This document shows, piece by piece, positions 8,038 to 55,854 of a stretch of DNA of 64,000 nt; positions within the stretch are counted from its first letter, which is position 1, and each line of letters starts with the position of its first letter. Source of the stretch: Asterella californica (taxonomy: Eukaryota; Streptophyta; Marchantiopsida; Marchantiales; Aytoniaceae); NCBI GenBank assembly GCA_036924285.1, contig JAYKYS010000001.1, forward strand, positions 26,225,501-26,289,500, read 5' to 3'. The position numbers were made by a program, and so were the translations under genes. The notes below the pieces were generated by a model, which saw nothing but the letters and a program-made list of their open reading frames with translations, had not been told where the DNA came from and did not search any database.

Positions 8038-8714
8038 AAACTTGTGCATCCTCTGGTATGCACCAGAGATACCAACCAAGGAGTGGACCGGCACGCACAC
8101 TTGTTCTCATCTTGTCATCCTCCCACCCATCTCAATCAACCTCAACCTCAAGTCTGCAACCCGATCGCCATCTTGAAGTTGCAACTCGGCCATGATCCAC
8201 TCTAGATCCATGCTCATCGCATCTCTTCTTCAATCTCTGATCCAATCACCCCTTTTAAATATCTACATCTTTCAATATGAGTTCGAAGACGTAGAAGCAA
8301 TAAACCATCATAGAATAGAAACGTCTTCCATTCGTCTTGTAGAACCTCACCGTCGAGGTTTGTGACCCAAGTGTCGTAGTAGACATCCCCGTCATCCCAA
8401 TCATCACCATATATCTTAACTGTAACTCTCAACCTCAAGCCTATAAGTATCAATCTCTTCTTTTTTGTTTTCTGAAAAAAACCACGCTGCTACAACTAAA
8501 ATCCTCAACCGCAACCATCATTGTCTCGCTGTACAATGGTATCCTCCTCAACCATCATCCTCCTTGATCTCTTCTTCTGAAAACCTTTACAACCTCCCAA
8601 GCCTCATCCTCCCGACCTTAATCACGTGTAAATTTTCACAACCTCTCAAGCATAATCACCTTCAGCAATGGCTTCTCCCCTGTAAGTCATCCTTACCCAT
8701 CATCCTATATTCGT
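8038..8714 (-). other. Remnant 3' internal region of a G2-like element
   Basis: No recognisable gene. A 79-codon minus-strand frame at 8214-8453 (rich in Asp, Tyr and Leu) sits where the C-terminal end of a G2-type pol would be. It shows no motif I recognise, so I do not call it coding. The last 20-30 bases before 8037 resemble the G2 tail. Confidence 0.35.
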
Positions 8715-9295
8715 TGTAGTGTTGTGAGACGCCTCACATGTGAATTCAGTACAAAATGTGTGTTGTGTTTTCTTTGTGTCCCCGAACCTTTCGTGTAGTT
8801 CGCATGAGAGCGTATTAGGTGTCGCGTTCACAGAGATCTAGATGTGAGATCGCACGATAACAAGATGTGCCGATTCAGTGATCCATGAACATTCGCGTGA
8901 ATGGCTCTTGTTGTCAAACTTAGGTATAAGATAGTGGGTCGACGGTTCGTGAGGCATTCTTCTTTGAGTAGATTTCATGAGTGTGTCTTAGTGTCTTACA
9001 TGATAAGTGAGAAACTGCAAGAGTGGTATTTATGGATGGAGGACTAAATCGAGTTCCGGATCTTTCACTTCCAAACCCGTTTCATATCAAGCTTCACTGC
9101 ATCCACCGCGATCATTTTCGACAGTGGTTCGTTGCCTACTTTGGAGAAGAGTTCATGGGGAGGATGATGGACTCGCCTACTTCGGTGGTCTTATCAATTG
9201 TCACGTACGGAGAGAACTAGGACTTGACAGTGTAAATCTTACTTTGACGAGGGGCGAATGGACCTCAATTATCCAGCCAACATCCCTTTCAACGT
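8715..9295 (+). mobile_element. 5' part of a diverged G2-like LTR, truncated
   Basis: Begins TGTAGTGTTGTGAGACGCCTC, matching the G2 LTR start TGTCGTGTTGTGGTTCGGCTC with scattered substitutions. It keeps a TATA element (GTATAAGATAGTGGGTC, about 8925) and the leader ORF-a, and breaks off inside ORF-b, where an S-family LTR appears to start at 9296 (TGTCGTGATG, preceded by ACGT). It is much more diverged than the other G2 LTRs. Confidence 0.65.
9032..9247 (+). pseudogene. Leader ORF-a, decayed copy in the 8715 LTR
   Basis: Counting from ATG at 9032 to the homologous stop at 9245-9247 gives exactly 216 nt, the same as every other ORF-a copy here, although this copy has two earlier in-frame stops (TAG at 9218 and a TAA a few codons later). 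It keeps PNPFHIKLHCIHRDHFRQW and FVAYFGEEFMGR almost unchanged. The ORF-b start follows ten bases later at 9258 (MDLNYPANIPFN) and is cut by the LTR insertion at 9296. Function unknown. Confidence 0.6.
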
Positions 9296-9657
9296 TGTCG
9301 TGATGTGAATCATTTCACATAGTAAATGATTCACTTCTCTGTCAGGCGTTAGTCTCTCTGAGTGAAGTTAAGACCTCAGAGAAGTCCATTTTTGGAAGAT
9401 GTTATATATTTTAAGTCTTAGTAGGTTGATTATCATGTTGATAGGGTTCAAGCTCATGGGTTGTATTTGCGTGTCGTCCATGCACGCTTTCTAGCTGATT
9501 TAAGTTATTTTTCGGGGCTGCGTGTCGTTTTAGGTAGTTTAAGTTTTACACTGGCACTCTAGGGGGCTTGACGTGGTAGCCTATGAGTGTAGATAAGTCA
9601 CCATGTAGTTTAAGGCATAAAAGGACAATCAAGTGGAGCTATGAACTCCCATTGGTC
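9296..9657 (-). mobile_element. S-family LTR, left part (split by G1a)
   Basis: From about 9420 this is the reverse complement of 10722-10970 in the solo S LTR, including the phrases around CACTCTAGGGGGCTTGACGTGG and GGAGCTATGAACTCCCATTGG. It stops at GGTC, where G1a is inserted, and resumes at 20619. The first 100 bases are not clearly alignable, so the 9296 terminus (TGTCGTGATG) is tentative. Confidence 0.7.
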
Positions 9658-13667: not shown

Positions 13668-13688
13668 GACTCGAAATGCAAACGTACC

Positions 13689-14184: not shown

Positions 14185-14398
14185 TGTCGTGTTGTGGTTC
14201 GGCTCTTGTGTGAAATTCCTGTGTAACCTATGTTGTGTTTCTTTTCCGTGTTTCGTGAACCGTATCGCGTAACTCGTCGAACGGTGTGATGAGTGCCACG
14301 TTTGTGATTATCTGTTTAAGTGATCGCACGGTAGAAGAACGTGCTAAGTCATCGATCTGTGCGCGTTCACTTTAGTGGTCCTTGTCGCCGCATTTGTG

Positions 14399-14405
14399 TA
14401 TAAAA
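14399..14405 (+). promoter_or_regulatory. TATA box of G2 LTR
   Basis: GTATAAAATGG, about 215 bp into the LTR and about 100 bp before leader ORF-a. It is conserved in the other G2 LTRs (minus strand at 45950-45956) and, altered, near 8925. It implies a U3 of only about 240 bp and a very long R-U5 region, so both leader ORFs should be on the transcript. A three-codon upstream frame (ATG at 14473) precedes ORF-a. Confidence 0.65.
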
Positions 14406-14506
14406 TGGTGGGTCGAAGGTTCATACGGCATTCTCTCTCAGCGGGTGATTCGTAAGGGTTCTCGGTGATCTGCATGGAGGAGTGAGGAACTACAGGAGTG
14501 GTGGTT

Positions 14507-14722
14507 ATGGACGGAGGTGTGTTACCGGCTCCGGATCTTCCTTTCCCGAATCCGTTTCACATCAAGCTTCATTGCATCCACCGCGATCACTTTCGACAGT
14601 GGTTAGTTGCGTACTTTGGTGATGAGTTCATGGGGAGGGTGATGGAGTTACAGCTTCCGGTGATCCTTCCAATCGTAACATACGGAGAGACTTGGGATAT
14701 GACGGTGTACATTTTGTTGTGA
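14507..14722 (+). CDS. Leader ORF-a in G2 solo LTR (71 aa, unknown function)
   Basis: Seventy-one codons from ATG 14507 (MDGGVLPAPDLPFPNPFHIK) to TGA. The second half carries WLVAYFGDEFMGRVM and PVILPIVTYGETWDMTVYIL. Copies in three other lineages (9032-9247, 52787-53002, 55639-55854) keep exactly 216 nt and the same motifs despite strong nucleotide divergence. The pattern suggests a small beta-rich domain. No signal peptide or known fold is recognised. It is the first sizeable ORF after the TATA box and is followed after six bases by ORF-b. The GTG codons just upstream (14498) extend the frame but are not needed. Coding is inferred from conservation, not demonstrated. Confidence 0.6.
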   Translation: MDGGVLPAPDLPFPNPFHIKLHCIHRDHFRQWLVAYFGDEFMGRVMELQLPVILPIVTYGETWDMTVYILL

Positions 14723-14728
14723 GGAACA

Positions 14729-14932
14729 ATGGATCTCAACTATCCATCGAACGTTCCTTTCAATCTTTGGGTCGATGTCCGGTGCCATTGCAGACCGAAG
14801 ATCAATCATGGGGCTTGGATCGTGAGAAACTTCGGGCAAGAATATTACAATCGAGTGATAGCTTCACCGTTTCCTTTTGTCATACCTTTTATTGTAGAAC
14901 GTTTCCAAGTTGTAATATTGACGTTGTATTAG
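14729..14932 (+). CDS. Leader ORF-b in G2 solo LTR (67 aa, unknown function)
   Basis: Starts six bases after the ORF-a stop (MDLNYPSNVPFNLWVDVRCH) and ends ...VVILTLY. Its core WIVRNFGQEYYNRVI plus PFVIPFI aligns without gaps to WLVAYFGDEFMGRVM plus PVILPIV of ORF-a, so the two look like tandem-duplicated paralogues. Homologues at 52565-52780 and 55430-55633 keep the same start context and end. The short intercistronic gap (5-10 nt in all lineages) suggests reinitiation after ORF-a, which is an inference. Confidence 0.6.
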   Translation: MDLNYPSNVPFNLWVDVRCHCRPKINHGAWIVRNFGQEYYNRVIASPFPFVIPFIVERFQVVILTLY

Positions 14933-16589
14933 TCTGCGGCTCACTGGTTTCATTCTGGTTGAGCGCTTCTGTGTAGTTACGGACCGCGAAGAATCCATCG
15001 ACATATCTGAAGGATTTTGTGAAGTCTTAGAGTGTTGTTGATGTCTTGTGTCTCCTTGGAGAGTAAAAATTCGTTCTAAGGGAAAAGTTAAGAAGAGAAA
15101 AGACAAAAAGTAAAGTTCTTTTTGCTCTTATTGGTCCACTTTTGGACCAATGGTGTTCTAGCTGATCCTCGCGACGTTTCTGTGGTTTCTGGAGGCTTCA
15201 GAGGGCCATTCGCGAAACGGAGGGGATGGTTGGAGAGCTCTCGACCGGGGCTACAATCTGGGCTGAAGAATCGATCGATTTGATGAAAGTATGAGCGCGT
15301 TATGATCGATTGAGTGGAGGGGGGTGAAATTTGTACCTACTGCTACGTTTCTGGTTGTTCCGAGAGACTCGCGAGGAGTTTTGAGGAGCTGTCTGTTGGG
15401 TTGGAGAGCTGACAACGTGCTGGTCGTTTTGATATCAATTTCATCAGTTTCTTGATCGATTTGGATTCTGAACCGACCGATTGAAGTTGAGAAGTGCAGA
15501 TGGGATAAGGCGGGACAGCGAACTGTGATAGCCATGGATAGTTTGCTATTGCTTAAGATCTGAGTCGAATTTCTGAGTGAAACTTTCCAGGATTGAAGAA
15601 TGTCTTATCAGTAAGATACTTGGGAAGTTTCACCTCAAATGGTCGAGTAGTTTGTTCAGAATCTTGGATCAAATGTACCTGGGTCTGTAAAGCTCTGAAG
15701 TTAGCACAGATTACGGTTTGATCCATATCTGAGAATTGGTTTGAGATTTCGACCTGAAAATTGTTCAGGGTAGGAGTGAAGGGTCCAATCAAGCTTCCTG
15801 TGAAGTTTGATCATCATTGGTCGAGTGGTTTGGAAGGACTGAGGTCTCAAAGTTCGAAAATACTTCTGTTATTAGCTATTTCGGGTTTTTCGATATCATC
15901 TATGATCATTTTGGTCATTTTCGATCAATTTGGAGAGGAGTTTGTTGCTGAAACTTCCATGCCTGCATGCAATTCGACATTGGAGGGTATGGGGCTGATT
16001 TCAGCTCTTGGTGATGAAGGAGAACGGAGTCGCCATGAGTCTTAAGCCGCTGTTTGGGTTCTCGGAGCTGCCAGGTACTACCGCCGTTGGTGCTATATTG
16101 AGATCTGAATAGTGTTTTGGAGTATGCATGCTTTACCTTGCTGGAATGCTTGGTAGACCAGGGTGTACAACAAGTTGTATCGATACTCTATCAAGTTGAT
16201 TGAGTGATCTTATAGCGTCTTCTGGTTGTACTATGAAGTTGTGATAGTTGGATTGATGGGCAGTTAGCGTCGCTGGAGAGCTATTCAGAAGTCAGGCTTC
16301 CAGTGATATAGAGGAATAACTTCAGTTAGATAATACAGATCTGAGTATTTTTAGTTAGAATACAAAAGATCTGTTTGTAACACAAGTTTATGCAACCTAT
16401 ACGTAACCTTGGATCGTAGCAAGCTTTAAACTTGAGACGAGCGGATACAAGGTCACTCAGGCTAGAAGAGTAGATAGTGAAACATTTGAGTGGAAACATC
16501 CAGATCTAGATCCAACCTTGTCAATCCACATACCTCTGCACAGCCATATACCCCGTGTATTCCTAGACAGAAAAACACGTTATACGATA

Positions 16590-17984: not shown

Positions 17985-17996
17985 TCGAACAGTCGC

Positions 17997-18635: not shown

Positions 18636-18770
18636 TCTTCTCTTCTTTTCATCTTCTTACTCAAGGTACTGCTTGCAGATGTGAAGATCGCACTTCACCG
18701 CAATCCACAATTTCCCCGTTGAGCTCTCTCCTCTCCAAAGGTTGGAATAAGTTTGACCCTCATGGTCATC

Positions 18771-19796: not shown

Positions 19797-19815
19797 GGTC
19801 CCGGCAACGGAACCA
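19797..19815 (-). other. G1a primer-binding site
   Basis: Minus strand TGGTTCCGTTGCCGGGACC, three bases inside the 5' LTR end. It resembles the tRNA-Asp-type site (TGGCGCCGTTGCC) common in plant Gypsy elements, with two changes in the acceptor part. Confidence 0.75.
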
Positions 19816-35359: not shown

Positions 35360-37015
35360 TATCGTATAACGTGTTTTTCTGTCTAGGAATACACGGGGTA
35401 TATGGCTGTGCAGAGGTATGTGGATTGACAAGGTTGGATCTAGATCTGGATGTTTCCACTCAAATGTTTCACTATCTACTCTTCTAGCCTGAGTGACCTT
35501 GTATCCGCTCGTCTCAAGTTTAAAGCTTGCTACGATCCAAGGTTACGTATAGGTTGCATAAACTTGTGTTACAAACAGATCTTTTGTATTCTAACTAAAA
35601 ATACTCAGATCTGTATTATCTAACTGAAGTTATTCCTCTATATCACTGGAAGCCTGACTTCTGAATAGCTCTCCAGCGACGCTAACTGCCCATCAATCCA
35701 ACTATCACAACTTCATAGTACAACCAGAAGACGCTATAAGATCACTCAATCAACTTGATAGAGTATCGATACAACTTGTTGTACACCCTGGTCTACCAAG
35801 CATTCCAGCAAGGTAAAGCATGCATACTCCAAAACACTATTCAGATCTCAATATAGCACCAACGGCGGTAGTACCTGGCAGCTCCGAGAACCCAAACAGC
35901 GGCTTAAGACTCATGGCGACTCCGTTCTCCTTCATCACCAAGAGCTGAAATCAGCCCCATACCCTCCAATGTCGAATTGCATGCAGGCATGGCAGTTTCA
36001 GCAACAAACTCCTCTCCAAATTGATCGAAAATGACCAAAATGATCATAGATGATATCGAAAAACCCGAAATAGCTAATAATAGAAGTATTTTCGAACTTT
36101 GAGACCTCAGTCCTTCCAAACCACTCGACCAATGATGATCAAACTTCACAGGAAGCTTGATTGGACCCTTCACTCCTACCCTGAACAATTTTCAGGTCGA
36201 AATCTCAAACCAATTCTTAGATATGGATCAAACCGTAATCTGTGCTAACTTCAGAGCTTTACAGACCCAGGTACATTTGATCCAAGATTCTGAACAAACT
36301 ACTCGACCATTTGAGGTGAAACTTCCCAAGTATCTTACTGATAAGACATTCTTCAATCCTGGAAAGTTTCACTCAGAAATTCGACTCAGATCTTAAGCAA
36401 TAGCAAACTATCCATGGCTATCACAGTTCGCTGTCCCGCCTTATCCCATCTGCACTTCTCAACTTCAATCGGTCGGTTCAGAATCCAAATCGATCAAGAA
36501 ACTGATGAAATTGATATCAAAACGACCAGCACGTCGTCAGCTCTCCAACCCAACAGACAGCTCCTCAAAACTCCTCGCGAGTCTCTCGGAACAACCAGAA
36601 ACGTAGCAGTAGGTACAAATTTCACCCCCTCCACTCAATCGATCATAACGCGCTCATACTTTCATCAAATCGATCGATTCTTCAGCCCAGATTGTAGCCC
36701 CGGTCAAGAGCTCTCCAACCATACCCTCCGTTTCGCGAATGGCCCTCTGAAGCCTCCAGAAACCACAGAAACGTCGCGAGGATCAGCTAGAACACCATTG
36801 GTCCAAAAGTGGACCAATAAGAGCAAAAAGAACTTTACTTTTTGTCTTTTCTCTTCTTAACTTTTCCCTTAGAACGAATTTTTACTCTCCAAGGAGACAC
36901 AAGACATCAACAACACTCTAAGACTTCACAAAATCCTTCAGATATGTCGATGGATTCTTCGCGGTCCGTAACTACACAGAAGCGCTCAACCAGAATGAAA
37001 CCAGTGAGCCGCAGA

Positions 37016-37219
37016 CTAATACAACGTCAATATTACAACTTGGAAACGTTCTACAATAAAAGGTATGACAAAAGGAAACGGTGAAGCTATCACTCGATTG
37101 TAATATTCTTGCTCGAAGTTTCTCACGATCCAAGCCCCATGATTGATCTTCGGTCTGCAATGGCACCGGACATCGACCCAAAGATTGAAAGGAATGTTCG
37201 ATGGATAGTTGAGATCCAT
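37016..37219 (-). CDS. Leader ORF-b in G2 3' LTR
   Basis: Sixty-seven codons, as in the solo LTR copy but with two substitutions (NIPFN for NVPFN, NFEQEYYN for NFGQEYYN), each from a transition that distinguishes this LTR from the 5' one. The Gly it changes is conserved in most other copies. In a 3' LTR this frame would not be in the leader of the element transcript. Confidence 0.5.
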   Translation of the reverse strand: MDLNYPSNIPFNLWVDVRCHCRPKINHGAWIVRNFEQEYYNRVIASPFPFVIPFIVERFQVVILTLY

Positions 37220-37225
37220 TGTTCC

Positions 37226-37441
37226 TCACAACAAAATGTACACCGTCATATCCCAAGTCTCTCCGTATGTTACGATTGGAAGGATCACCGGAAGCTGTAA
37301 CTCCATCACCCTCCCCATGAACTCATCACCAAAGTACGCAACTAACCACTGTCGAAAGTGATCGCGGTGGATGCAATGAAGCTTGATGTGAAACGGATTC
37401 GGGAAAGGAAGATCCGGAGCCGGTAACACACCTCCGTCCAT
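37226..37441 (-). CDS. Leader ORF-a in G2 3' LTR
   Basis: Seventy-one codons from ATG at 37441 (MDGGVLPAPDLPFPNPFHIK), identical in length and apparently in sequence to the solo-LTR copy at 14507-14722. It stops six bases before ORF-b. Unknown function. Confidence 0.5.
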   Translation of the reverse strand: MDGGVLPAPDLPFPNPFHIKLHCIHRDHFRQWLVAYFGDEFMGRVMELQLPVILPIVTYGETWDMTVYILL

Positions 37442-37763
37442 AACCACCACTCCTGTAGTTCCTCACTCCTCCATGCAGATCACCGAGAACCCTTACGAAT
37501 CACCCGCTGAGAGAGAATGCCGTATGAACCTTCGACCCACCATTTTATACACAAATGCGGCGACAAGGACCACTAAAGTGAACGCGCACAGATCGATGAC
37601 TTAGCACATTCTTCTACCGTGCGATCACTTAAACAGATAATCACAAACGTGGCACTCATCACACCGTTCGACGAGTTACGCGATACGGTTCACGAAACAC
37701 GGAAAAGAAACACAACATAGGTTACACAGGAATTTCACACAGGAGCCGAACCACAACACGACA

Positions 37764-37826: not shown

Positions 37827-40800
37827 TCACACTATATCTTCATCTTCTTCACTGATGTTGTCGTTAGCAATATCTTCGTCATCCAAATCTTCTCCGTCAT
37901 CATCCAAGATATCAAACTCAACTTCGACTTCCTCCATGCTTATCCCTTCATCTCGCTTCTTGAAGAGTTTCACACGCTTGCCTGCAATTGGAACCTTGAG
38001 CTCTGCCCCATCAAGCTCTCTTAGTGAATATGTGGCATTGTCAAGCACGACAAGAACCACATACTGGCCAAACCATCGCTTAGAGAATTTTCTAAGCGCA
38101 CTGTGTTGGTTGTCCAAGCTACTATCGTAGACCAACACCCAATCTCCTTCTTTAATCTCCTTCGGCCTTAATCGATGACGCTTATCAAATCTGTCTTTGT
38201 TTCTCAAGCGCGCCTCTTTCAGCTTCTCCAATGCAATCTCTACATCTTCAGGTCTTCTCTCTAGTTGACGGATTCGGACAGCAAGAAGATCTTCTGTAGA
38301 CATACCATCCTCCCAAGGTAGAACACTCCAAGTAGGTATGTGCTCCTCAATGGGCATGATAGGTTTCTGCCCCTGCATCAACTCCGCCGGCATATATCCC
38401 GTAACTGAACTATGAGTCGAACGATCTGCCCATAATGCAAACGGAAGAAATCTTGGCCATTCTCTTGCCCTCCCCTTGCAAGCTTTCACAATAGCTTTCA
38501 CAATAGGAGGATGACCACGTTCACTCTTCGCATTACCTTCCGGATTGTAGGCTGTGGTGAGAGCTAACTTCACACCACACCTCTTGAAGAACGCTTTAGC
38601 CTCATCATTGTTCAGCTCCCCTCGATCAGCCGTGATCTTCCCAACACAACCATATCTACAAATCACATCTTCCAACAAGAATTTGCAGACTCCCTCTGTG
38701 GATTTTGTCCGTAAGGCTCGCCCTTCCACTTGGTTGGACAAATCCTCACGTGCCAAAACTAAGTATCGCATCTGCCATATACCAACTGGCATAATAACAA
38801 GATCTACTACCCACTTATAATGCATTGCAAGTGGATAAGTAGGATGTAATCCATCTCGATGCCGAATTCCTGAATACTCTTGACAAGTTTGGCATGTCTC
38901 CACAAATTGAACTACATCTCTGTACATGTTACGCCACCAATATCTCTCCTTCAGCTTTGTAAAGGTGGCATAAATACCTCTATGTCCTGCCCACAAGCTC
39001 TCATGAAACTCCTGCATGAGTAACTTCTGCATGTCAACCTTGCACACAACCCTTTGTGGCATCTTACCACCTTGCTTAGCATGTTTCCACAAATAACCAC
39101 CTTGTAGCAAGTAGTTATAAGCCTTCCTCCTGATTTGTTTAAAGTGGGCATCACTCCATCCTGGCTGTCTAGTCAACAGACTTAGATAGCGTCCTATGTC
39201 TATCCATTCTCCTTCATATAGCTCCTCCATGAACGGTTTCGAATGCTCACTCTCACCTCCTTGAGCTCTACAGAAAACAGTAGTACCAACATCTTCTGTA
39301 TCTTCTATCATCTCCTCCTCATCCTCATACCTCGCACGAGATAACATATCAGCTACTAGATTGTTCTTCCCCGCTATGTGTCGGAACTCAGGATTTAAGG
39401 ACTTGATGTAAGCAATCCAACGTAGCATAGCAATATCAGGAGTGTTACAGTTTGTAATCATCCCTAATAGTGGTAAACAATCTGTTTCTACTATTACTGG
39501 CGCTCCAATCAAATAATCCTTTTCAGCTTTCATAGCTGTAACTACTCCCCATAACTCTCTCTTCACTTGAGGATAGTTTCTATGTCGCTCACTCAACACC
39601 TTTGCTCCAAATCTGACTGCAAACCGATTCTCTTCTTCATCATCTTGTCCTACTGCCCATCCAATGGCTATCGGACTAGTATCAACAGTAAGTATCACTG
39701 GTTTGCTATCCTCGTAGCTCACACGACGAAGTACAGGTGGAGAAGATAACAACTGCTTCAATCTCTGAATCGCCTCGGTATGTCTCTCCTCCCATGCAAA
39801 CCTCTTGTGCTTTCTCAACAGATCGTAAAGAGGATCAGCCACATGTGCAAAATGTGGAATCCACACATGATAGAAGACACAAGCTCCAAGAAACCTTCTC
39901 ACCTCTGTTGTTGAACTACAAGTATCCTTCATCCGCCGTATAGCATCCACTTTACCAGGATCAGGCTTGCGTCCAAACCATCCACATAAGTGCCCCACAA
40001 TCACAACCTCTCGCACTCCAAATGAAGACTTGGCACCTGATAGTGTCAAGTGCGCCTCTTCAAGTCGTGATAAGATTTTATCACAATCTGAAATGTGATC
40101 AGCAACAAAGTTTCTACACCCCTTCTGATCCATTGTCTCATCTTTCTCCTCCTCAACGCATCCCTTAATTGGAATGTCATCCAAGAAAGGCATGGTCTTC
40201 TCAGGAATGAACTCACGGAGAACCTTGTTCATCCCGTTCATCATGTGCGCTACCGAGTTTGTTGCTCCTTGTGGTAGTGTGCACATTCTGACCAACCCCA
40301 ACGGTGTCCTCATGGTGGTGATATCTCTACTCTGTTCAGCAAGTTGAAACTGATCGTATCCAGAGTAAAGATCTCCTATAGAGTAAATAGCCCTCCCAGC
40401 AAACGCTTCAGCAAACTCTCCGACGATAGGTCCTATGCCTGTATTTCTGATGGTCACTTGGTTCACAGGTTGCATATCTTGGATGAACCGTAATGCACCA
40501 CTCTTCTTTGGTACTGTAAACCAACGACTAGAGTACGGTGCAAACGATGGTTCCAAGATCTTCATCTGCATCTTCTCCTTCAAGAGCTCTATGAGTTTCG
40601 GTAGATGCGCTCTAGGTACAGGAATTGGCCTCAAATCCCAAGGAGCATGTGGAACTGTGAATATGATCATTGGCGCCACAATGCTAGGATCTACACATCC
40701 GATTTCTGAGGCTTCAAAAGCAAAAGCTTTCCCGTGCCTAGTTAACATCTCCCTAAACCTATTCTCCTCCACAGACAAAAGAAAATCTGCTGAACCAACC

Positions 40801-41330
40801 TTCAACTCCTTGAGCGTAGCTTCAGTGAACTTGTGACCGACCCGGCTAAGATCTCTCAAGCTTTTCTCCTTCGAAGATTGTTGGACTCGTTGGTTAGAAT
40901 CACTAGGTAATGGCTGAGCAACAGGTTTTACCTTCTTGTCTACCGTTTTGTACCTAGTATCAACTCTAACTTCAGGATCTACGAATGACTCTATAGCTGT
41001 ATAGAGCTCCCTAGAGTGTACTTCCACCACATGATCCTCATCTTCTTGCTCATGCATAGCAAGTTCATCGATGAAATCTCCCAATCCTAACTCCAAATAA
41101 ACACCTTCTATCTTATCATCCTCTTCAAGCACACCAACTCTCTTTAGATCTTTTTCAGTTTTTCGCACAACTTTCTGCTCCCACTTCTGCAAGTCAGCAA
41201 GTCGTGTATGTGTAGCAAATCCACTCCCAGAAAATCTCACAACTCCTGTACAAAAAGCACTTTCTTTCTCTAGCGAGAGTACCTTCTCAAGTGTACCACT
41301 ATGTCCTCGCTCTATAGCAGTACTTGTCAA
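37827..41330 (-). CDS. G2 pol: reverse transcriptase, RNase H, integrase
   Basis: An intact frame of 1167 codons. RT (about residues 190-480) has LPKLIELLKEKMQMKILEPS, IGDLYSGYDQFQLAEQSRDI, LPQGATNSVAHMMNGMNKVL and the catalytic box MPFLDDIPIKG, with F-L-D-D where Y-x-D-D is usual. RNase H has LTVDTSPIAIGWAVGQDDEE and ends near ADMLSRARYEDEEE. The integrase zinc finger is HESLWAGHRGIY with CQTCQEY. The core has WVVDLVIMPVG, ITADRGELNN and NPEGNAKSERGH (D, D, E). A basic tail with an SH3-like region (EGDWVLVYDSS) and an acidic end follow. Protease is not here but in gag. The frame overlaps gag by four bases in the -1 frame. The RT type resembles Gypsy elements with FLDD known from charophytes and basidiomycetes (from memory). 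Confidence 0.95.
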   Translation of the reverse strand: MTSTAIERGHSGTLEKVLSLEKESAFCTGVVRFSGSGFATHTRLADLQKWEQKVVRKTEKDLKRVGVLEEDDKIEGVYLELGLGDFIDELAMHEQEDEDHVVEVHSRELYTAIESFVDPEVRVDTRYKTVDKKVKPVAQPLPSDSNQRVQQSSKEKSLRDLSRVGHKFTEATLKELKVGSADFLLSVEENRFREMLTRHGKAFAFEASEIGCVDPSIVAPMIIFTVPHAPWDLRPIPVPRAHLPKLIELLKEKMQMKILEPSFAPYSSRWFTVPKKSGALRFIQDMQPVNQVTIRNTGIGPIVGEFAEAFAGRAIYSIGDLYSGYDQFQLAEQSRDITTMRTPLGLVRMCTLPQGATNSVAHMMNGMNKVLREFIPEKTMPFLDDIPIKGCVEEEKDETMDQKGCRNFVADHISDCDKILSRLEEAHLTLSGAKSSFGVREVVIVGHLCGWFGRKPDPGKVDAIRRMKDTCSSTTEVRRFLGACVFYHVWIPHFAHVADPLYDLLRKHKRFAWEERHTEAIQRLKQLLSSPPVLRRVSYEDSKPVILTVDTSPIAIGWAVGQDDEEENRFAVRFGAKVLSERHRNYPQVKRELWGVVTAMKAEKDYLIGAPVIVETDCLPLLGMITNCNTPDIAMLRWIAYIKSLNPEFRHIAGKNNLVADMLSRARYEDEEEMIEDTEDVGTTVFCRAQGGESEHSKPFMEELYEGEWIDIGRYLSLLTRQPGWSDAHFKQIRRKAYNYLLQGGYLWKHAKQGGKMPQRVVCKVDMQKLLMQEFHESLWAGHRGIYATFTKLKERYWWRNMYRDVVQFVETCQTCQEYSGIRHRDGLHPTYPLAMHYKWVVDLVIMPVGIWQMRYLVLAREDLSNQVEGRALRTKSTEGVCKFLLEDVICRYGCVGKITADRGELNNDEAKAFFKRCGVKLALTTAYNPEGNAKSERGHPPIVKAIVKACKGRAREWPRFLPFALWADRSTHSSVTGYMPAELMQGQKPIMPIEEHIPTWSVLPWEDGMSTEDLLAVRIRQLERRPEDVEIALEKLKEARLRNKDRFDKRHRLRPKEIKEGDWVLVYDSSLDNQHSALRKFSKRWFGQYVVLVVLDNATYSLRELDGAELKVPIAGKRVKLFKKRDEGISMEEVEVEFDILDDDGEDLDDEDIANDNISEEDEDIV

Positions 41331-43726
41331 AAATCCTTGAACTCCTCCGTGACCTTAGGCAAGGAGCCACCCCTCAGATAATCTCTGTTCCGCTCGTGGT
41401 TTGCTGATACAGTTAGAAATTGTACCGCTCTCTTGCCATCCTGACTTCTGATCCGCGCATAAGCAGATCCATCATCCAAAACCTTGGTCTCCATCCTCAC
41501 AGCTGTAATGTAAGGTTGACCGAGTATCACCGGGTATGACGTACTATCTTGAACAAAGAAGTTTTGTTCAATAGTTACATCTCTCACCTTTACTTTCACA
41601 TCAGGACAAGCTCCATAGAGTTCTCCTCGTGTGTTGTTCGCTGTTCTGATCATCCAACCATGATCTATATCAACAGGCCATCCACCTTGCTTGTAGATGT
41701 CCTTAGAGACAATATTGATCTCTGATCCATGATCAATGAGAGCAACCACTGGATCTGTCATCTCTCCTACCTTCACTAAGGCTTCGGTAGTAGCTCTAGC
41801 CCAATGTCCTCTAGTGTAATGACTAGGGACCTTGTCATCGTTATCATCCTCAAACCGAACCTTGCGGTTGATGCAGCATTGAGCTAGTTCTAACTCTTCC
41901 TCTCTTGATATCCTTGTGTCTAATGCATTAGACACAGCGGTTTCTCCTGCCAATTGCCTTTTTCGTTTGATGGTGTCAATAATGACATCATGAAACTCCC
42001 TCTTGGCAATCCCAAGAATCTCTCGCAAGGTAAACTCGATCTTGGCATTGAGTACTCTCTCTTCTAGTACTCCTTTCAGATCCGTAGCAGCTTCAATATC
42101 AGACTGAAGCTTGTATGAAGGAGATTTACCTTTCTCCTTACCTCTGCTCTTCTCTGACTTCTCAGGAGTAGAGGATATGACCTCTTCCATAGTCTCCTCT
42201 GGTAGAGACATAATCTCCGGTCTGAACTTTTCTCCTCTTGTTTGCCTCTTGAGAGTTGTTCTCTCTTCGCTAGGGCCTGCTTCATCTCGTTTGCGCTTCT
42301 CCTCCATGAGAGCCTCATGTTGACTCTTCGCCAAATAAGCGTGAACAGACATTGTATCCACGGGATCATCCCATCCAGTAGCACCCCTGATTGCCGTGGC
42401 TGTTCTGAGCAACTCCTCCCTTGCCATTTTCCCCCTTTTGTTCGTGCTTACCGCATGGCTCCACATATCAAGAGTATCTCCATCCTTCTTAGAAGCTATT
42501 CTTTCTCGTACTACCTCAACTCCATAAGTAGCAGCTTCTACCGACGCAGTAGCATGTTGAGATAGATACTCCTCCAGTACTTGCTTCATTCCTCCTTTCC
42601 CGAAGTTGGTTCTAAGAATCTCTCCATTATCCTTCAGAGCAATCTTTCCTTCCTTCCAATAGACTACTCCATCTCGTAGAGTTTTGGCAAAATCACCACA
42701 CTCTCTTCGAGCATGATCAGAACTATCACACCAAATGCATCTCTGTACATAATCTTGCTTAGGAGCAAGTTTGGTATCATGTGCTCCTCCCTTCTCTTCC
42801 AACCTTGCTAACTTGATCTGCAAGTCCCTCATCCCTTTTACCAACTCTTCCATAGCATCTCTTTGCGGTGCAACTTTCGGGACAGGAATAGTAGGAAGTG
42901 GAACTTGAGGTACATGCACAATAGGTGCTTGCACATTGGGTACCATTGGTTGCCTACGAGGTACTATGATCGGCGGTGGTCTCTCTTCTTGTCTTACCAC
43001 CACCTTCCCTCTCCGGTACTCTCGTTTGGCAAGTACACTCACTGCTTCAGAGACTTTTCTCCAGTCAGTCGTGAGTCCGTTGTCTTCCATCCTATCTTCT
43101 AGAAGCAGCTCCAACTCCCTTTGTAATTCATTGTTGGCTGCTTGTAGAAACAACTCCACCTTGTCATTCTCCAATGTGAGCTTCTCCATCCGAGACAACT
43201 GAAGGAATTGTCTCTCATACTCCCGAAATAGCTCTGTGGCAACAAGCCCTTTGTTGGGTTTGTTTACCCACTCCATGAATGACTTCTTAGTCACTCGGTC
43301 TGCATCTTCTAAAGAATACTCTTCTTTCAGCTGAAGAGTAAATCCTTCCCACGTAGCACCATGAGATCGGATGATGTCCTTCATGTGCTCTCGTAGTTCA
43401 GGTACGACAGCAAGCGCAAATGTACTCACCATCTCTCTTTCAGGCACCTTGCTCAACTCCATCTCTCGGGAATAGTACTTTAGGTACTTGGATATGTTCT
43501 TCCCGTCAAACTGATCTAGCAACCCCACAACAGATTGCAAGGCTTTAGTAGCCATTGCTTCTTTCCGTTCAGTGGCTTGCTGTTGTTGCATTACCAACGC
43601 GAATGCCTCAAGCAATCGCATATCAGACCGTGAAAGCTTGGTCACCTTTGGTGCCTCTCCAGATGTAGAAGCCTCATCTACGTAATGACCCAACCCTTCA
43701 ATGTCCATGGTGGCAAAACCACGCAC
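41327..43726 (-). CDS. G2 gag-protease polyprotein
   Basis: An intact frame of 799 codons. Capsid region about 70-230: VVGLLDQFDGKNISKYLKYY, VPELREHMKDIIRSHGATWE, and LVATELFREYERQFLQLSRM. One zinc knuckle CIWCDSSDHARREC at about 333-346. The C-terminal retropepsin-like domain (about 650-760) has VVALIDHGSEINIVSKDIYK and YPVILGQPYITAVRM. The catalytic triplet is D-H-G, not D-S/T-G. It ends EEFKDF then TGA. Starts MRGFATMDIEGLGHYVDEAS about 40 bp from the LTR; a second Met (residue 7) is also possible. Gag would package the RNA and the protease process both polyproteins. Confidence 0.95.
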   Translation of the reverse strand: MRGFATMDIEGLGHYVDEASTSGEAPKVTKLSRSDMRLLEAFALVMQQQQATERKEAMATKALQSVVGLLDQFDGKNISKYLKYYSREMELSKVPEREMVSTFALAVVPELREHMKDIIRSHGATWEGFTLQLKEEYSLEDADRVTKKSFMEWVNKPNKGLVATELFREYERQFLQLSRMEKLTLENDKVELFLQAANNELQRELELLLEDRMEDNGLTTDWRKVSEAVSVLAKREYRRGKVVVRQEERPPPIIVPRRQPMVPNVQAPIVHVPQVPLPTIPVPKVAPQRDAMEELVKGMRDLQIKLARLEEKGGAHDTKLAPKQDYVQRCIWCDSSDHARRECGDFAKTLRDGVVYWKEGKIALKDNGEILRTNFGKGGMKQVLEEYLSQHATASVEAATYGVEVVRERIASKKDGDTLDMWSHAVSTNKRGKMAREELLRTATAIRGATGWDDPVDTMSVHAYLAKSQHEALMEEKRKRDEAGPSEERTTLKRQTRGEKFRPEIMSLPEETMEEVISSTPEKSEKSRGKEKGKSPSYKLQSDIEAATDLKGVLEERVLNAKIEFTLREILGIAKREFHDVIIDTIKRKRQLAGETAVSNALDTRISREEELELAQCCINRKVRFEDDNDDKVPSHYTRGHWARATTEALVKVGEMTDPVVALIDHGSEINIVSKDIYKQGGWPVDIDHGWMIRTANNTRGELYGACPDVKVKVRDVTIEQNFFVQDSTSYPVILGQPYITAVRMETKVLDDGSAYARIRSQDGKRAVQFLTVSANHERNRDYLRGGSLPKVTEEFKDF

Positions 43727-43764: not shown

Positions 43765-45422
43765 GCTATCGTATAACGTGTTTTTCTGTCTAGGAATACA
43801 CGGGGTATATGGCTGTGCAGAGGTATGTGGATTGACAAGGTTGGATCTAGATCTGGATGTTTCCACTCAAATGTTTCACTATCTACTCTTCTAGCCTGAG
43901 TGACCTTGTATCCGCTCGTCTCAAGTTTAAAGCTTGCTACGATCCAAGGTTACGTATAGGTTGCATAAACTTGTGTTACAAACAGATCTTTTGTATTCTA
44001 ACTAAAAATACTCAGATCTGTATTATCTAACTGAAGTTATTCCTCTATATCACTGGAAGCCTGACTTCTGAATAGCTCTCCAGCGACGCTAACTGCCCAT
44101 CAATCCAACTATCACAACTTCATAGTACAACCAGAAGACGCTATAAGATCACTCAATCAACTTGATAGAGTATCGATACAACTTGTTGTACACCCTGGTC
44201 TACCAAGCATTCCAGCAAGGTAAAGCATGCATACTCCAAAACACTATTCAGATCTCAATATAGCACCAACGGCGGTAGTACCTGGCAGCTCCGAGAACCC
44301 AAACAGCGGCTTAAGACTCATGGCGACTCCGTTCTCCTTCATCACCAAGAGCTGAAATCAGCCCCATACCCTCCAATGTCGAATTGCATGCAGGCATGGC
44401 AGTTTCAGCAACAAACTCCTCTCCAAATTGATCGAAAATGACCAAAATGATCATAGATGATATCGAAAAACCCGAAATAGCTAATAACAGAAGTATTTTC
44501 GAACTTTGAGACCTCAGTCCTTCCAAACCACTCGACCAATGATGATCAAACTTCACAGGAAGCTTGATTGGACCCTTCACTCCTACCCTGAACAATTTTC
44601 AGGTCGAAATCTCAAACCAATTCTTAGATATGGATCAAACCGTAATCTGTGCTAACTTCAGAGCTTTACAGACCCAGGTACATTTGATCCAAGATTCTGA
44701 ACAAACTACTCGACCATTTGAGGTGAAACTTCCCAAGTATCTTACTGATAAGACATTCTTCAATCCTGGAAAGTTTCACTCAGAAATTCGACTCAGATCT
44801 TAAGCAATAGCAAACTATCCATGGCTATCACAGTTCGCTGTCCCGCCTTATCCCATCTGCACTTCTCAACTTCAATCGGTCGGTTCAGAATCCAAATCGA
44901 TCAAGAAACTGATGAAATTGATATCAAAACGACCAGCACGTCGTCAGCTCTCCAACCCAACAGACAGCTCCTCAAAACTCCTCGCGAGTCTCTCGGAACA
45001 ACCAGAAACGTAGCAGTAGGTACAAATTTCACCCCCTCCACTCAATCGATCATAACGCGCTCATACTTTCATCAAATCGATCGATTCTTCAGCCCAGATT
45101 GTAGCCCCGGTCAAGAGCTCTCCAACCATACCCTCCGTTTCGCGAATGGCCCTCTGAAGCCTCCAGAAACCACAGAAACGTCGCGAGGATCAGCTAGAAC
45201 ACCATTGGTCCAAAAGTGGACCAATAAGAGCAAAAAGAACTTTACTTTTTGTCTTTTCTCTTCTTAACTTTTCCCTTAGAACGAATTTTTACTCTCCAAG
45301 GAGACACAAGACATCAACAACACTCTAAGACTTCACAAAATCCTTCAGATATGTCGATGGATTCTTCGCGGTCCGTAACTACACAGAAGCGCTTAACCAG
45401 AATGAAACCAGTGAGCCGCAGA

Positions 45423-45626
45423 CTAATACAACGTCAATATTACAACTTGGAAACGTTCTACAATAAAAGGTATGACAAAAGGAAACGGTGAAGCTATCAC
45501 TCGATTGTAATATTCTTGCCCGAAGTTTCTCACGATCCAAGCCCCATGATTGATCTTCGGTCTGCAATGGCACCGGACATCGACCCAAAGATTGAAAGGA
45601 ACGTTCGATGGATAGTTGAGATCCAT
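45423..45626 (-). CDS. Leader ORF-b in G2 5' LTR
   Basis: Sixty-seven codons, matching the solo-LTR copy (MDLNYPSNVPFNLWVDVRCH to ILTLY). It starts six bases after the ORF-a stop. The core WIVRNFGQEYYNRVI and PFVIPFIVERFQVVI mirrors ORF-a. As part of the 5' leader of an apparently active element, this is the copy most likely to be translated. Confidence 0.6.
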   Translation of the reverse strand: MDLNYPSNVPFNLWVDVRCHCRPKINHGAWIVRNFGQEYYNRVIASPFPFVIPFIVERFQVVILTLY

Positions 45627-45632
45627 TGTTCC

Positions 45633-45848
45633 TCACAACAAAATGTACACCGTCATATCCCAAGTCTCTCCGTATGTTACGATTGGAAGGATCACCGGAA
45701 GCTGTAACTCCATCACCCTCCCCATGAACTCATCACCAAAGTACGCAACTAACCACTGTCGAAAGTGATCGCGGTGGATGCAATGAAGCTTGATGTGAAA
45801 CGGATTCGGGAAAGGAAGATCCGGAGCCGGTAACACACCTCCGTCCAT
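45633..45848 (-). CDS. Leader ORF-a in G2 5' LTR
   Basis: Seventy-one codons from ATG 45848 to TGA 45633-45635, about 100 bp after the TATA box. Motifs as at 14507-14722: FHIKLHCIHRDHFRQWLVAY, FGDEFMGRVM and PVILPIVTY. A three-codon upstream frame (ATG GAG GAG TGA) lies about 25 bases before it. Confidence 0.6.
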   Translation of the reverse strand: MDGGVLPAPDLPFPNPFHIKLHCIHRDHFRQWLVAYFGDEFMGRVMELQLPVILPIVTYGETWDMTVYILL

Positions 45849-46170
45849 AACCACCACTCCTGTAGTTCCTCACTCCTCCATGCAGATCACCGAGAACCCT
45901 TACGAATCACCCGCTGAGAGAGAATGCCGTATGAACCTTCGACCCACCATTTTATACACAAATGCGGCGACAAGGACCACTAAAGTGAACGCGCACAGAT
46001 CGATGACTTAGCACGTTCTTCTACCGTGCGATCACTTAAACAGATAATCACAAACGTGGCACTCATCACACCGTTCGACGAGTTACGCGATACGGTTCAC
46101 GAAACACGGAAAAGAAACACAACATAGGTTACACAGGAATTTCACACAGGAGCCGAACCACAACACGACA

Positions 46171-52564: not shown

Positions 52565-52780
52565 TCAATATAGAGTCAGAATCTTGACTCTAAAACGGTT
52601 GACAATAAACGGAACTACAAAAGGAACGGATGAAGCTATTATCTGGTTGTAATAATCCTCTCCGAAATTCCTCACCAAAGACTCTCCTTGCGCCACCTTT
52701 GGTCGATTGTAACAACGTATTTCGACCCAAATGTTAAACGGAACTCTCGCTGGAAAGTTCAGATCCAATGGAGGATCCAT
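52565..52780 (-). CDS. Leader ORF-b in G2d LTR (71 aa)
   Basis: Starts MDPPLDLNFPARVPFNIWVE, four residues longer at the N-terminus than the G2 form, and keeps VRNFGEDYYNQIIAS and VPFVVPFIVNRFRVKILTLY. It is fully open although ORF-a just upstream has stops and the LTR is old and non-coding elsewhere. Starts six bases after the ORF-a stop. Confidence 0.5.
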   Translation of the reverse strand: MDPPLDLNFPARVPFNIWVEIRCYNRPKVAQGESLVRNFGEDYYNQIIASSVPFVVPFIVNRFRVKILTLY

Positions 52781-52786
52781 ACCACA

Positions 52787-53002
52787 TCATAGCAAGATGT
52801 AGACAGTAAGATCTCAAACAGCGTCGTAAGTGACAATGAGAAGAATGATAGGATCCGGAGTAGCCATCACCGCAGTCATAAATGACTCTCTTCAATGAGC
52901 TACCATAAATACTTGAAAGTGATCCCGCGACAGACAATGGATCTTAATGACAAATGGATGCACAAGTGGAAGATCAAGAGCACGAAAGGGCTTTCCGTTC
53001 AT
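52787..53002 (-). pseudogene. Leader ORF-a in G2d LTR, two stops
   Basis: Read from ATG 53002 the frame keeps 72 codons in register: DLPLVHPFVIKIHCLSRDHF, then a stop where others have Phe, FMTAVMA, PIILLIVTY, a second stop where others have Trp (TGG to TGA type), and DLTVYILL. No indel has accumulated. Substitutions are mostly conservative. Confidence 0.55.
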
Positions 53003-53300
53003 GCCTACCACTCGCACTGTCGCTTACTTCATCCGATGATACTGATCACACTCACACTAGACTTAGATACTCTACACTCTCTATATCCCAAGCTCCGCGC
53101 ACCTCTCTTCTTATACATCAACCTCGCATATGAGGACAAGAGTACTACCTTTATCTCCACTCAGCAGAGAGTACACAGATCGTCCACGTGGGGCCTTATC
53201 TTTTGACACGATAAGGTCCCAGTGGCTCCTCAACACCAAACACGTACGATAAGGATATGTGGTGGTTTCACACCCTAGCCAATTCACAACACGACACCGT

Positions 53301-53928
53301 GCTGAACAAAAATGATGTTCAAATATAACTGAGCAAGTTGCGGTGTTGAGACGTCTTTCGTGGTTGGTCGGAGGTGGATCATCTTGTTGAGCTTATCGAC
53401 GAAGACGACTATGGAGTCAAAACTTGAGCTGATCATGGGTAGTTCACACACTAAGTCTATACTAACATGTTCCCAACTTTTGGAAGGGATCGGGAGGGGT
53501 TGAAGAAGACCGGAGGGTGCTTGATTTGTAGCCTTATTTTGTTGACACATTGCACAATCCCGAGTGTATACTGCAACATCCTCTACCATCTTGGGTCAAT
53601 AGAACACTCGTTGGACTGCTTCTAATGTCTTTTCTGCCCCCATGTGTCCTGCAATGGCTGAATCGTGACATTCAGCTAATATGGTGGTACGTAGTTCTGG
53701 ATCATCTAGGATCCATAACTTCTCTTCATGGAATATTAAACTATGGTTGCGGGTGATGGTTCTTGAAGGTTTTGCTGCTACAATCTGTGCATCCGATCTT
53801 GTGCCCTCGATCAATTTTATCCAGAAGTCAGAATTCACCTTGACTTCAAAGACCATGTTATGCACGATAGACATGCGTGTTAATGCATCAACAATTTGGT
53901 TCTTGTCCTCAACGTACGTGATGGTCAT
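53301..53928 (-). pseudogene. G3 RNase H end and integrase N-terminal half
   Basis: Two frames: 53596-53928 (MTITYVEDKNQIVDALTRMS, then ILDDPELRTTILAECHDSAI and GHMGAEKTLEAVQRVF, the HH half of the zinc finger) and 53284-53589 (YTRDCAMCQQNKAT, the CC half, then WEHVSIDLVCELP with the first catalytic Asp and FVDKLNKMIHLRPTTK). A stop at about 53592 separates them. It breaks at QHG where G2d is inserted; the rest is at 30620-31155. Confidence 0.85.
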
Positions 53929-53982
53929 GTTGAATCGCTGCCTCCATTCTGCCCAACGGATTTGTCTCTTTGAGAGATCCTT

Positions 53983-54354
53983 CTACGTCTCCAAATAGAC
54001 TAAAGGTTTGTGATCTGTCGCGACCACAAAAGTCTTCTCTCCTAGATAATGCTTCCAATGCTTCGTGACGAGGTCTATCGTCAATTCTTCTCTTTCAGTG
54101 GTGTGGTAGTTTTCTGCTGGTAATAATTTCTGAGAGAAATATGCAATTGGATGCCAACCATCCTTCCATTCTTGCTGCAACACCGCCCTTACTGTCGTGC
54201 CTGATGCGTCCGTTGCTAACTTGATAGGTTTTTCCAAGTCGTATCACTTGAAGATCTGAGCATGTAGTAGTGCGGTCTTCAGTGCTTGAAAACCTACTTC
54301 TTGCGCTGTTCCCCACATCCATTTCTTTCCTTTGTCTAATAGAGCAGTTAGTGG
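53983..54354 (-). pseudogene. G3 RNase H, N-terminal part
   Basis: Reads KPIKLATDASGTTVRAVLQQ, WHPIAYFSQKLLPAENYHTT and KTFVVATDHKPLVYLET before a stop at 53983. Upstream (54240-54354) is the RT-RNase H connection, frame-shifted relative to it. Confidence 0.8.
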
Positions 54355-54795
54355 TTATGCAAGCTTGGCAAAATGCTTAACAAATCTACGATAAAATCCT
54401 ATCAATCCCAGGAAGCTCTTAAGTTGAGTCTGATCTTCTAGAGCCCTCCATGGTTGGATGACAGCTATTTTATCTGCCATTACTTGTATGCCTTCTGCAC
54501 TCACTATGTGTCTTAAGTAATCCACCTCCGTCTTGTCAAATTCACATTTTGAAATTTTGAAACGTTCCATGAGTGTCGGACCGTTTGCATACAAGATTTC
54601 AGATCGATTCTGATGATTTGGAGGAATCATCACTTCTCCTCCTAATGCTCCAGTAATTCTTTGAGTGCAAGCGATGGCCTCAAAAACCGTGAGTGGATTT
54701 TGCACCATTATTTCTTGTCGGATTCTTTCCTTCAACCTCCTCTTGAAATTATCAAGAGCCTCCACTGGACTCATATCAGTGATTGCAACTTGCAA
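54355..54795 (-). pseudogene. G3 gag fused to RT thumb by internal deletion
   Basis: A 146-codon frame whose first half is gag (DMSPVEALDNFKRRLKERIR, TVFEAIACTQRITGAL) and whose second half, from about residue 80, is the end of RT (ISKCEFDKTEVDYLRHIVSA, LKSFLGLIGFYRRFVKHFAK). The zinc knuckle, protease and the RT catalytic core are missing, yet the frame is continuous across the join. It cannot be catalytically active. It is a deletion product, possibly mobilised in trans before it was broken. Confidence 0.8.
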
Positions 54796-54986
54796 GTCGA
54801 GGAAGGCTTCTACATACTCTTTGAAGGTTTCCCTTCTGTTTCAATCTCCACATCCTCGTTCGAGCCATTTGCACAGACTCCACAGATTGGAAATTCTTCA
54901 ACATGGATTGCATTGCAATCCATGTTACTGTTCTCCCTTTCGTCAACATCGATCTTTCTCATGCATCACACCACATGAGAGCTTTA

Positions 54987-55382
54987 TCATTCAAGTATCC
55001 ACAGGCAAACACTCTCGCTATGTGATCCGTGATTTGCGTACTGAAAAGTCGCAAAGAAATCTAATTCTCGACTACAGATGCGTTGATCTTTGTACGGTTC
55101 AATGTTATATGTCTTCTTCATCCGTAGTAACAGGGCACTTTCATCATCGATTGGAGTTCTAACGATTTGTACCAAGGGTTCCATTGGTGCAGCTTGCTCT
55201 CCCATCATTGATACTCCTTGAGACGATCCTCTCCTTCCAACGTCTGTCATACTCTGACCTTCGAGGTTCAACATTTTATTTTGTAGTGCTTCAACCGTCA
55301 TCTTCACCTCTCGAAATTCAATCACCATGCCCTGCATCAATTCCTGCATCACCAACTCTAGGTTTGGATGTTGTGGCTCCAT
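54987..55382 (-). pseudogene. G3 gag N-terminal part
   Basis: Starts MEPQHPNLELVMQELMQGMV with a predicted helical coiled coil (VKMTVEALQNKMLNLEGQSM), then LVQIVRTPIDDESALLLRMK and FATFQYANHGSHSESVC before a stop. Continuation to the capsid at 54795 is frame-shifted. The ATG is preceded by a GA-rich microsatellite (AGAGAGAGAGAGC). Confidence 0.65.
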
Positions 55383-55429
55383 GATTGCTCTCTCTCTCTC
55401 TCCAACAACACGAAAGTTTCAAAGCTTTC

Positions 55430-55633
55430 CTAGTATAGAGTTTTGACGACCACTCGGAAGCGTTCGTACACTACAAGTACTACAAAAGAGACAAGAGAAT
55501 CGATTATCTTGTGGTAGAAATCCTCATCAAAATTTCTAATCACAAACTCTCTATGTAACAATTTCGGTCTACAGATATAGCGGATCTCCACCCACGTGTT
55601 GAAGGGAACAGCAGCGGGTAGGTTTAGATCCAT
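55430..55633 (-). CDS. Leader ORF-b in G3 leader (67 aa)
   Basis: Reads MDLNLPAAVPFNTWVEIRYI, then FVIRNFDEDFYHKIID and VVYERFRVVVKTLY. Same length as in G2 (67 residues) and open, although G3 belongs to a different Gypsy family with an unrelated LTR and primer site. It lies between primer site and gag. It starts five bases after the ORF-a stop. Confidence 0.6.
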   Translation of the reverse strand: MDLNLPAAVPFNTWVEIRYICRPKLLHREFVIRNFDEDFYHKIIDSLVSFVVLVVYERFRVVVKTLY

Positions 55634-55638: not shown

Positions 55639-55854
55639 CTAAATCAAGATGTAGACGGTCCAATCCCAACTGGTTGCATATGTCACTACTGGAAGCATCA
55701 CCGGGACTGACGAATTCATCACTTGATCCATGAAATCCCCATCGAAATGATAAACAAGATACACTCAAAAATACTCACGACGTAAATACATAAGCTTGAT
55801 GTGGAAAGGATTCAAGAATGGTAATTCTGGAGCTGGAAATCTACCCCCATCCAT
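55639..55854 (-). pseudogene. Leader ORF-a in G3 leader, one stop
   Basis: From ATG 55854: MDGGRFPAPELPFLNPFHIK, LMYLRREYF, an in-frame TGA where G2 has CGA (Arg), then VYLVYHFDGDFMDQVM, PVMLPVVTY and WDWTVYILI. Exactly 216 nt, as in all other lineages. A minimal start-stop ATGTGA overlaps the initiating ATG. Confidence 0.6.

Follow-up and report, generated by a model that had tools for sequence, protein, structure and literature searches.

Here we describe a pair of adjacent small open reading frames (ORFs), ORF-a and ORF-b, that recurs in four families of Gypsy retrotransposons of Asterella californica and very probably represents a real, conserved, protein-coding accessory pair, as judged from codon-level patterns in its sequence. 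The pair was noticed in a 64,000-nucleotide stretch of the genome (hereafter the window; GenBank assembly GCA_036924285.1, contig JAYKYS010000001.1, positions 26,225,501 to 26,289,500), where an initial annotation listed it at six places, all of which are real. This cassette is located inside a ~2.4-kb long terminal repeat (LTR) in three related families (G2, G2d, and G2e). In G3, a chromodomain family unrelated to these, it is found between the primer site and gag instead. Based on the coding constraint and paralogy of the two ORFs and on the divergence of the cassette relative to pol, we consider it likely that the two ORFs are translated into paralogous accessory proteins and form a 5' cassette that has moved laterally among several Gypsy families.

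The ability of some retroelements to spread, or to escape host defenses, is explained by accessory genes, sORF2 of insect elements being one example. What is distinct here is that two small genes related by duplication reside within the LTR itself, and that they recur in families whose pol proteins are hardly similar. If translated, the pair would offer a common accessory module, a handle on the exchange of functions between retrotransposon families, and a well-defined system in which to test whether translation of several small ORFs is coupled on a single eukaryotic RNA.

Conservation and coding constraint of the cassette

Copies of the cassette were sought throughout the 517-Mb assembly, and intact copies were found for all four families. 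For each query, the best 150 of 5472-7112 candidates were considered, best-first, which favors intact copies; among these best-scored matches, the frame was free of stops in 150/150 for G2 ORF-a, 150/150 for G2d ORF-b, 144/150 for G2e ORF-a, and 142/150 for G3 ORF-b. In the solo LTR of G2 in the window (plus strand), ORF-a (14507..14722, 71 amino acids; assessed by codon-position and dN/dS tests) is followed in the same frame by its paralog ORF-b (14729..14932, 67 amino acids). ORF-a measures 216 nt in each of the four families, as had been proposed for every lineage, and the aligned ORF-b 204 nt. The distance from the ORF-a stop to the ORF-b start is 6 nt in G2 and G2d, 9 nt in G2e (taken from the printed sequence letters), and 5 nt in G3, a measured range of 5-9 nt that agrees with the 5-10 nt first suggested. 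The motifs FGxEFxxxVM and PVxLPxVTY, which were said to persist, are looser than claimed, the G2d versions being WGESFMAAVM and PIVLPIVTY.

Assignment to Ty3/Gypsy is based, for G2, on an LTR pair, a gag-type ORF, and RVT_1, RNase H, and Integrase_H2C2 domains, and, for G3, on an LTR pair with long frames and a pol that can be aligned to that of G2 over 864 amino acids. Cassette matches recur ~8.50 kb apart in G2d and ~8.29 kb apart in G2e, as a location in the LTR predicts; the start of the G2d 5' LTR and the stretch up to gag were additionally aligned to G2. In all eight fetched G3 copies, the pair precedes pol and follows a terminal repeat of 401-509 bp at a distance of ~100-120 nt, consistent with the earlier placement between primer site and gag; in one copy, an initiator methionine (iMet)-like primer site was seen to follow the LTR. 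The 382-codon G3 gag frame is unbroken in four of these eight copies and a pol frame of at least 1000 codons is present in six, while the gag ATG was recognized 44-49 nt past ORF-b in 22/30 G3 loci, the fixed motif being unmatched in the other 8/30.

Codon-level comparisons point to selection on the encoded proteins. When intact copies of the four families were compared in pairs, differences were in excess at third codon positions in all 12 comparisons, with chi-square p values from 4e-10 to 3e-3 that derive from non-independent pairs. Ratios of nonsynonymous to synonymous substitution rates (dN/dS) between families are well below 1: with Jukes-Cantor (JC) correction, finite values between intact copies are 0.12-0.16, the remaining pairs being saturated at synonymous sites, and finite values within the window, decayed copies included, are 0.12-0.19. 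The corresponding ratio of uncorrected proportions (pN/pS) among intact G2, G2d, and G3 copies is 0.26-0.40. Nucleotide similarity between G2 and G3 spans ~430 nt, covering the pair, and their flanks outside the pair are no more similar than shuffled sequence, with the exception of one 100-nt segment that overlaps the beginning of the pair and is barely above shuffles. These sequence tests support the initial proposal that unrelated Gypsy families have a conserved coding pair at the front of their presumed RNA.

Several observations weigh against this reading. Synonymous divergence is near saturation, such that dN/dS values are rough; G2d ORF-b has an extra ATG 12 nt upstream, giving 216 nt; and between G2 and G2d, which are closely related, the LTR flanks can be aligned as well (58-65%), unlike those of G2 and G3. 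Furthermore, a bias of indels toward multiples of three was not borne out: only 1/11 distinct ORF-a indels among 30 G3 copies is a multiple of three, and indels in these copies are as dense in ORF-a as in the leader (52 per kb in both), compared with 64 per kb in the LTR and 39 per kb in gag. The refuting conditions named in the initial annotation (dN/dS near 1, indels without bias to multiples of three, and equally conserved flanks) therefore yield a mixed outcome. Because gag behaves likewise (14/44 indels are multiples of three), the ORF-a indels that do not preserve the frame fit post-insertion decay and provide weak evidence against coding. G3 ORF-b showed 0 indels, but the copies had been selected by ORF-b. 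Within the 30 G3 copies, 17/30 ORF-a, 28/30 ORF-b (the search query, and hence favored), and 7/30 gag frames are full-length and stop-free; in the 21/30 copies that were selected because their ORF-a could be aligned, pooled pN/pS within G3 reaches 0.58 in ORF-a and 0.31 in ORF-b.

Divergence of the cassette relative to pol

Amino acid identity of pol among G2, G2d, and G2e is 83-86% (84-86% over 612 codons), and that of G3 pol to them is 27-28%. Identity of the cassette is distributed differently, with 80% between G2 and G2e, and 57-62% wherever G2d or G3 is one of the two families compared. Between G2 and G3, dN is 0.95 in pol and 0.32 in the cassette, and the G3 branch measures 3.2 substitutions per site in the pol tree and 0.35 in the cassette tree. 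The cassette tree groups G2 with G2e and G2d with G3, and both alternative groupings were rejected by approximately unbiased (AU) tests (0.001 and 0.015 with protein, 0.039 and 0.030 with nucleotide data); the pol tree does not resolve the order of G2, G2d, and G2e. On these trees the G2d cassette is misplaced relative to pol. Accelerated evolution of the G2d cassette was considered and is disfavored, given that, with G3 as reference, the length of the G2d branch does not exceed that of the others. Synonymous divergence does not decide between replacement and fast evolution of this cassette, as G2-G2d pS is 0.70 (0.59-0.78) in the cassette and 0.57 (0.53-0.64) in pol, with individual pol windows ranging from 0.33 to 0.79.

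Between G2 and G2e, cassette and pol have evolved at about equal speed (dN 0.12 and 0.10, respectively). Since the G2-G2e cassette keeps pace with pol, its co-inheritance with pol since the G2-G3 split is not easily possible. The cassette has probably moved laterally between Gypsy families, although four taxa and 138 codons form a small base, three of the four families compared being related, and no transfer was observed directly.

Leader layout, predicted fold, and competing explanations

Two features that the initial annotation had not described are the homology between ORF-a and ORF-b and a minimal upstream ORF (mini-uORF) preceding ORF-a. In G2, G2d, and G2e, ORF-a is preceded at a distance of exactly 33 nt by an ATG whose frame ends after three, two, and one codons, respectively, at different stops (in the G2 solo LTR ATG GAG GAG TGA, 14474..14485, plus strand), while G3 has ATG-TGA 5 nt before ORF-a. 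Shuffled leaders yield such a mini-uORF in 13-17% of cases each, and because the LTR families are related, the joint chance is not a plain product. Further uORFs are found in G2 (16 codons at -102), G2d (14 codons at -116 and one codon at -127), and G2e (4 codons at -54). The TATA box reported ~100 bp ahead of the G2 pair corresponds to a TATA-like motif (TATAAAA, 14399..14405, plus strand, read from the sequence and of putative function) 108 nt before ORF-a; were transcription to start just past it, the pair would be in the R-U5 part of the LTR.

A mini-uORF combined with a 5-9 nt gap is what one would expect to see if reinitiation or leaky scanning took place, and the previously suggested role of reinitiation is therefore plausible as far as the arrangement of start and stop codons goes. 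Other parts of the layout speak against such a simple scheme: a 23-codon uORF at -117 in G3 begins in the primer site, ahead of the mini-uORF, and the 1714 nt between ORF-b and gag in G2 contain 23 ATGs, leaving gag translation unexplained. Access to the G2 gag, the ATG of which is within GCCACCATGG (position 2463 counted from the LTR start), would need splicing or internal entry. Stop readthrough joining ORF-a and ORF-b was also considered, the two being in the same frame with TGA between them in G2, G2d, and G2e; it cannot be a general mechanism, because in G3 most copies end ORF-a with TAG and the frame of ORF-b differs.

Similarity between ORF-a and ORF-b was found with tblastn (E 4e-6), and comparison of their profiles with hhalign gave a probability of 94.3 and an E of 1e-7 over 41 columns with 27% identity; the pair therefore arose by duplication of one domain. 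AlphaFold predicts a beta-alpha-alpha-beta-beta arrangement for both ORFs with modest confidence, and the models have no convincing match among solved or viral structures. Neither ORF of G2 matched a Pfam family at E up to 1, and 6/6 aligned cassette sequences were likewise free of Pfam matches, Band_7 included, at E up to 5. Scans for relatives among viral contigs (64 and 20 pattern matches) and prokaryotic genome contigs (71 matches) produced none that was confirmed.

In the explanation that we favor, one domain of ~50 residues would have duplicated to give ORF-a and ORF-b, both encoding small accessory proteins, and in several Gypsy families the resulting cassette would be placed first on the RNA. 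The simplest route of transfer between lineages would be template switching during co-packaging of their RNAs, with separate capture from one source as an alternative, and the landing sites would be in the R-U5 part of the LTR (G2-type elements) or between primer site and gag (G3). Ribosomes would meet a uORF of 1-3 codons, translate ORF-a, and reach ORF-b 5-9 nt further on by termination-reinitiation or leaky scanning. Conjecturally, the products may act on behalf of the element, either by helping its RNA or Gag or by opposing a host factor, and might do so as homo- or heterodimers of the same fold. A more far-reaching version, in which an exchangeable two-gene cassette with a new small fold, a mini-uORF, and coupled reinitiation, located in LTR or leader, moves between deeply diverged Gypsy lineages and constitutes a helper or anti-host module common to the retrotransposons of one host, is offered tentatively, as a possibility that we would bet slightly against.

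Other explanations differ in what they take the ORFs to be. That the act of uORF translation matters rather than the peptides, gating gag or keeping RNA free for packaging, would agree with the mini-uORFs, the tandem ORFs 5-9 nt apart, and the position of gag ~45 nt after ORF-b in most G3 copies; this is unlikely given that amino acid conservation extends over both whole ORFs, exceeding what length, start, and stop would need, and that gag is ~1.7 kb further on in G2-type elements. Chance ORFs kept in shape by common non-coding sequence, an account in line with the conserved flanks of close relatives, are scarcely credible and already contradicted by the codon-position bias, the low dN/dS, the identical lengths, and conservation despite flanks that cannot be aligned. 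Vertical descent from a common Gypsy ancestor, with losses elsewhere and slow evolution, would accommodate the 5' RNA position in 4/4 families as well as the lack of a directly observed transfer, yet it is very improbable, as it must reconcile near-equal cassette and pol dN between G2 and G2e with a G2-G3 cassette dN that is a third of that of pol, and would require relocation between LTR and internal positions.

A quite improbable further alternative is that the pair derives from a captured and duplicated host SPFH/prohibitin domain, perhaps captured more than once. The initial annotation had mentioned a captured host domain, and ORF-b, unlike ORF-a, does show such a resemblance: with PDB sequences searched at E up to 10, all four matches of the ORF-b profile are prohibitins (best E 0.24, 44-49 ungapped residues), and the hhalign score of 24.5 against the prohibitin segment exceeds the maximum of 300 column shuffles (20.5). 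That segment, however, was picked because it ranked first among 177635 sequences, and all four matches represent one family. ORF-a scores within the null (45/300 shuffles score as high), neither ORF has a Pfam match, and the similarity of two fetched host Band_7 ORFs to the cassette ORFs is no greater than noise. In addition, the prohibitin segment in question is helical, which the predicted C-terminal strands misfit. The matches listed by Foldseek for the ORF-b model and by VIA-align for the ORF-a model contained no SPFH fold, both models being of modest confidence. Host capture from a prohibitin is thus unproven. The two Band_7 ORFs (contig C81, 5595890-5596426 and 5619304-5619837; 260 and 255 amino acids) are ~23 kb apart with one open frame each, and we take them to be flotillin-like.

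Comparison with known elements and further features of the window

No description of this paralogous pair was found in the open-licence literature. Among retroviruses, the sag ORF of mouse mammary tumor virus (MMTV) is located in the U3 part of the LTR and is read from the 3' LTR; the cassette resembles sag in that a protein would be encoded within an LTR, and differs in that it follows the TATA-like motif and is presumably in R-U5.

A closer parallel is provided by the Drosophila MDG1 group (412, Mdg1, and Stalker), in which sORF1 (~110 amino acids) and sORF2 (~70 amino acids) are located upstream of gag and are transcribed and translated, sORF1 being predicted to encode a helix-turn-helix protein and sORF2 a transmembrane fusogen of FAST-like type, with an N-terminal myristoylation motif (MGxxxS/T) in 4/6 (PMC11952523). 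Both systems consist of two small sense ORFs upstream of gag with a low nonsynonymous rate in Gypsy-type elements without env; this layout is present in 8/8 fetched G3 copies, while in G2-type elements the pair is inside the LTR and upstream of gag on the presumed RNA. Unlike the MDG1 ORFs in that account, the cassette ORFs are paralogs with a predicted mixed alpha/beta fold, are LTR-internal in three families, and are common to families with 27% identical pol. Where one MDG1 ORF has a central transmembrane segment next to a basic patch, the maximum 19-residue hydropathy of the cassette ORFs is 1.18-1.77, in segments interrupted by charged residues and predicted as strands, and the myristoylation start MGxxxS/T was found in 0/6 sequences from three families (starts MDGG, MNGE, MDGG, MDLN, LDLN, and MDLN). 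By analogy, the pair may work like MDG1 sORF1 and sORF2 in position and constraint; membership in that group is not claimed.

Plant Ogre/Tat/Athila (OTA) elements, a non-chromovirus superclade with large non-coding regions, also carry accessory ORFs (eORFs) outside gag-pol, from which the tandem, paralogous, LTR-internal pair is set apart by description only, on the portion of the source available (PMC6317226). Some Tcn1-type elements contain an additional ORF whose function is not known; being chromodomain Gypsy elements with an extra ORF, they resemble G3 by description only (PMC2864245).

The G2 pair at 14507..14932 belongs to a solo LTR (14185..16589, plus strand) that was aligned to the LTR pair of the full-length G2 element with one 1-nt indel. 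The latter is on the minus strand from 46170 to 35360 and has LTRs of 2404 bp, identified by LTR alignment (5' LTR 43767..46170, 3' LTR 35360..37763). Its gag-type ORF with DUF4100 (41327..43726; Pfam PF13352, E 9.6e-7) is followed by pol (37827..41330), in which Pfam identifies reverse transcriptase (RVT_1), RNase H, and an integrase zinc-binding domain (Integrase_H2C2). In the 5' LTR, ORF-a (45633..45848) leads the pair on the presumed genomic RNA and is followed by ORF-b (45423..45626); the 3' LTR contains ORF-a at 37226..37441 and ORF-b at 37016..37219, all on the minus strand. The three G2 LTRs of the window measure 2404-2405 bp and each contains both ORFs, with ORF-a starting at LTR position 323 and ORF-b at 545.

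While the G2 copies are open, the other listed places contain damaged pairs. G2e is the intact family to which the decayed LTR fragment at 8694..9306 (plus strand, alignable to the G2 LTR) belongs; its ORF-a (9032..9247) has 2 internal stops and its ORF-b match is limited to the first 15 residues. On the minus strand, the G2d copy has an ORF-a with 2 internal stops (52790..53002) and an open ORF-b of 71 amino acids (52565..52780), and the G3 copy an ORF-a with 1 internal stop (55639..55854) and an open ORF-b of 67 amino acids (55430..55633). Behind the G3 pair, tblastn with an unbroken G3 copy identified gag and part of pol in broken form (53293..55400, minus strand).

Outside the window, five G2d ORF-b matches on G000:C114 (2543270, 2589028, 2634800, 2680580, and 2726363) are spaced by 45.76-45.78 kb, which suggests a large tandem array of ~45.8-kb units carrying a G2d element. 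Matches spaced regularly by ~14 kb, 8.4 kb, or 8.5 kb on C145 (98074-154182), C21 (7290568-7307576), C52 (11385326-11402576), and C11 (12605414-12622626) suggest tandem LTR-internal-LTR arrays with common LTRs.

Other features of the window include two copies (~95-97% alike) of another Gypsy element (13240-20619 and 46171-51134), each with a nearby G2 insertion, the solo LTR beside one copy and the full G2 element beside the other. A large imperfect inverted repeat at 58508-62020, with arms ~74-91% alike and a 0.65-kb center, is perhaps a foldback element. A tandem repeat with a unit of ~157 bp is found at 7127-7972, and an ORF of 263 amino acids with a SAM domain (2350-3141; Pfam E 2e-6) is probably part of a host gene.
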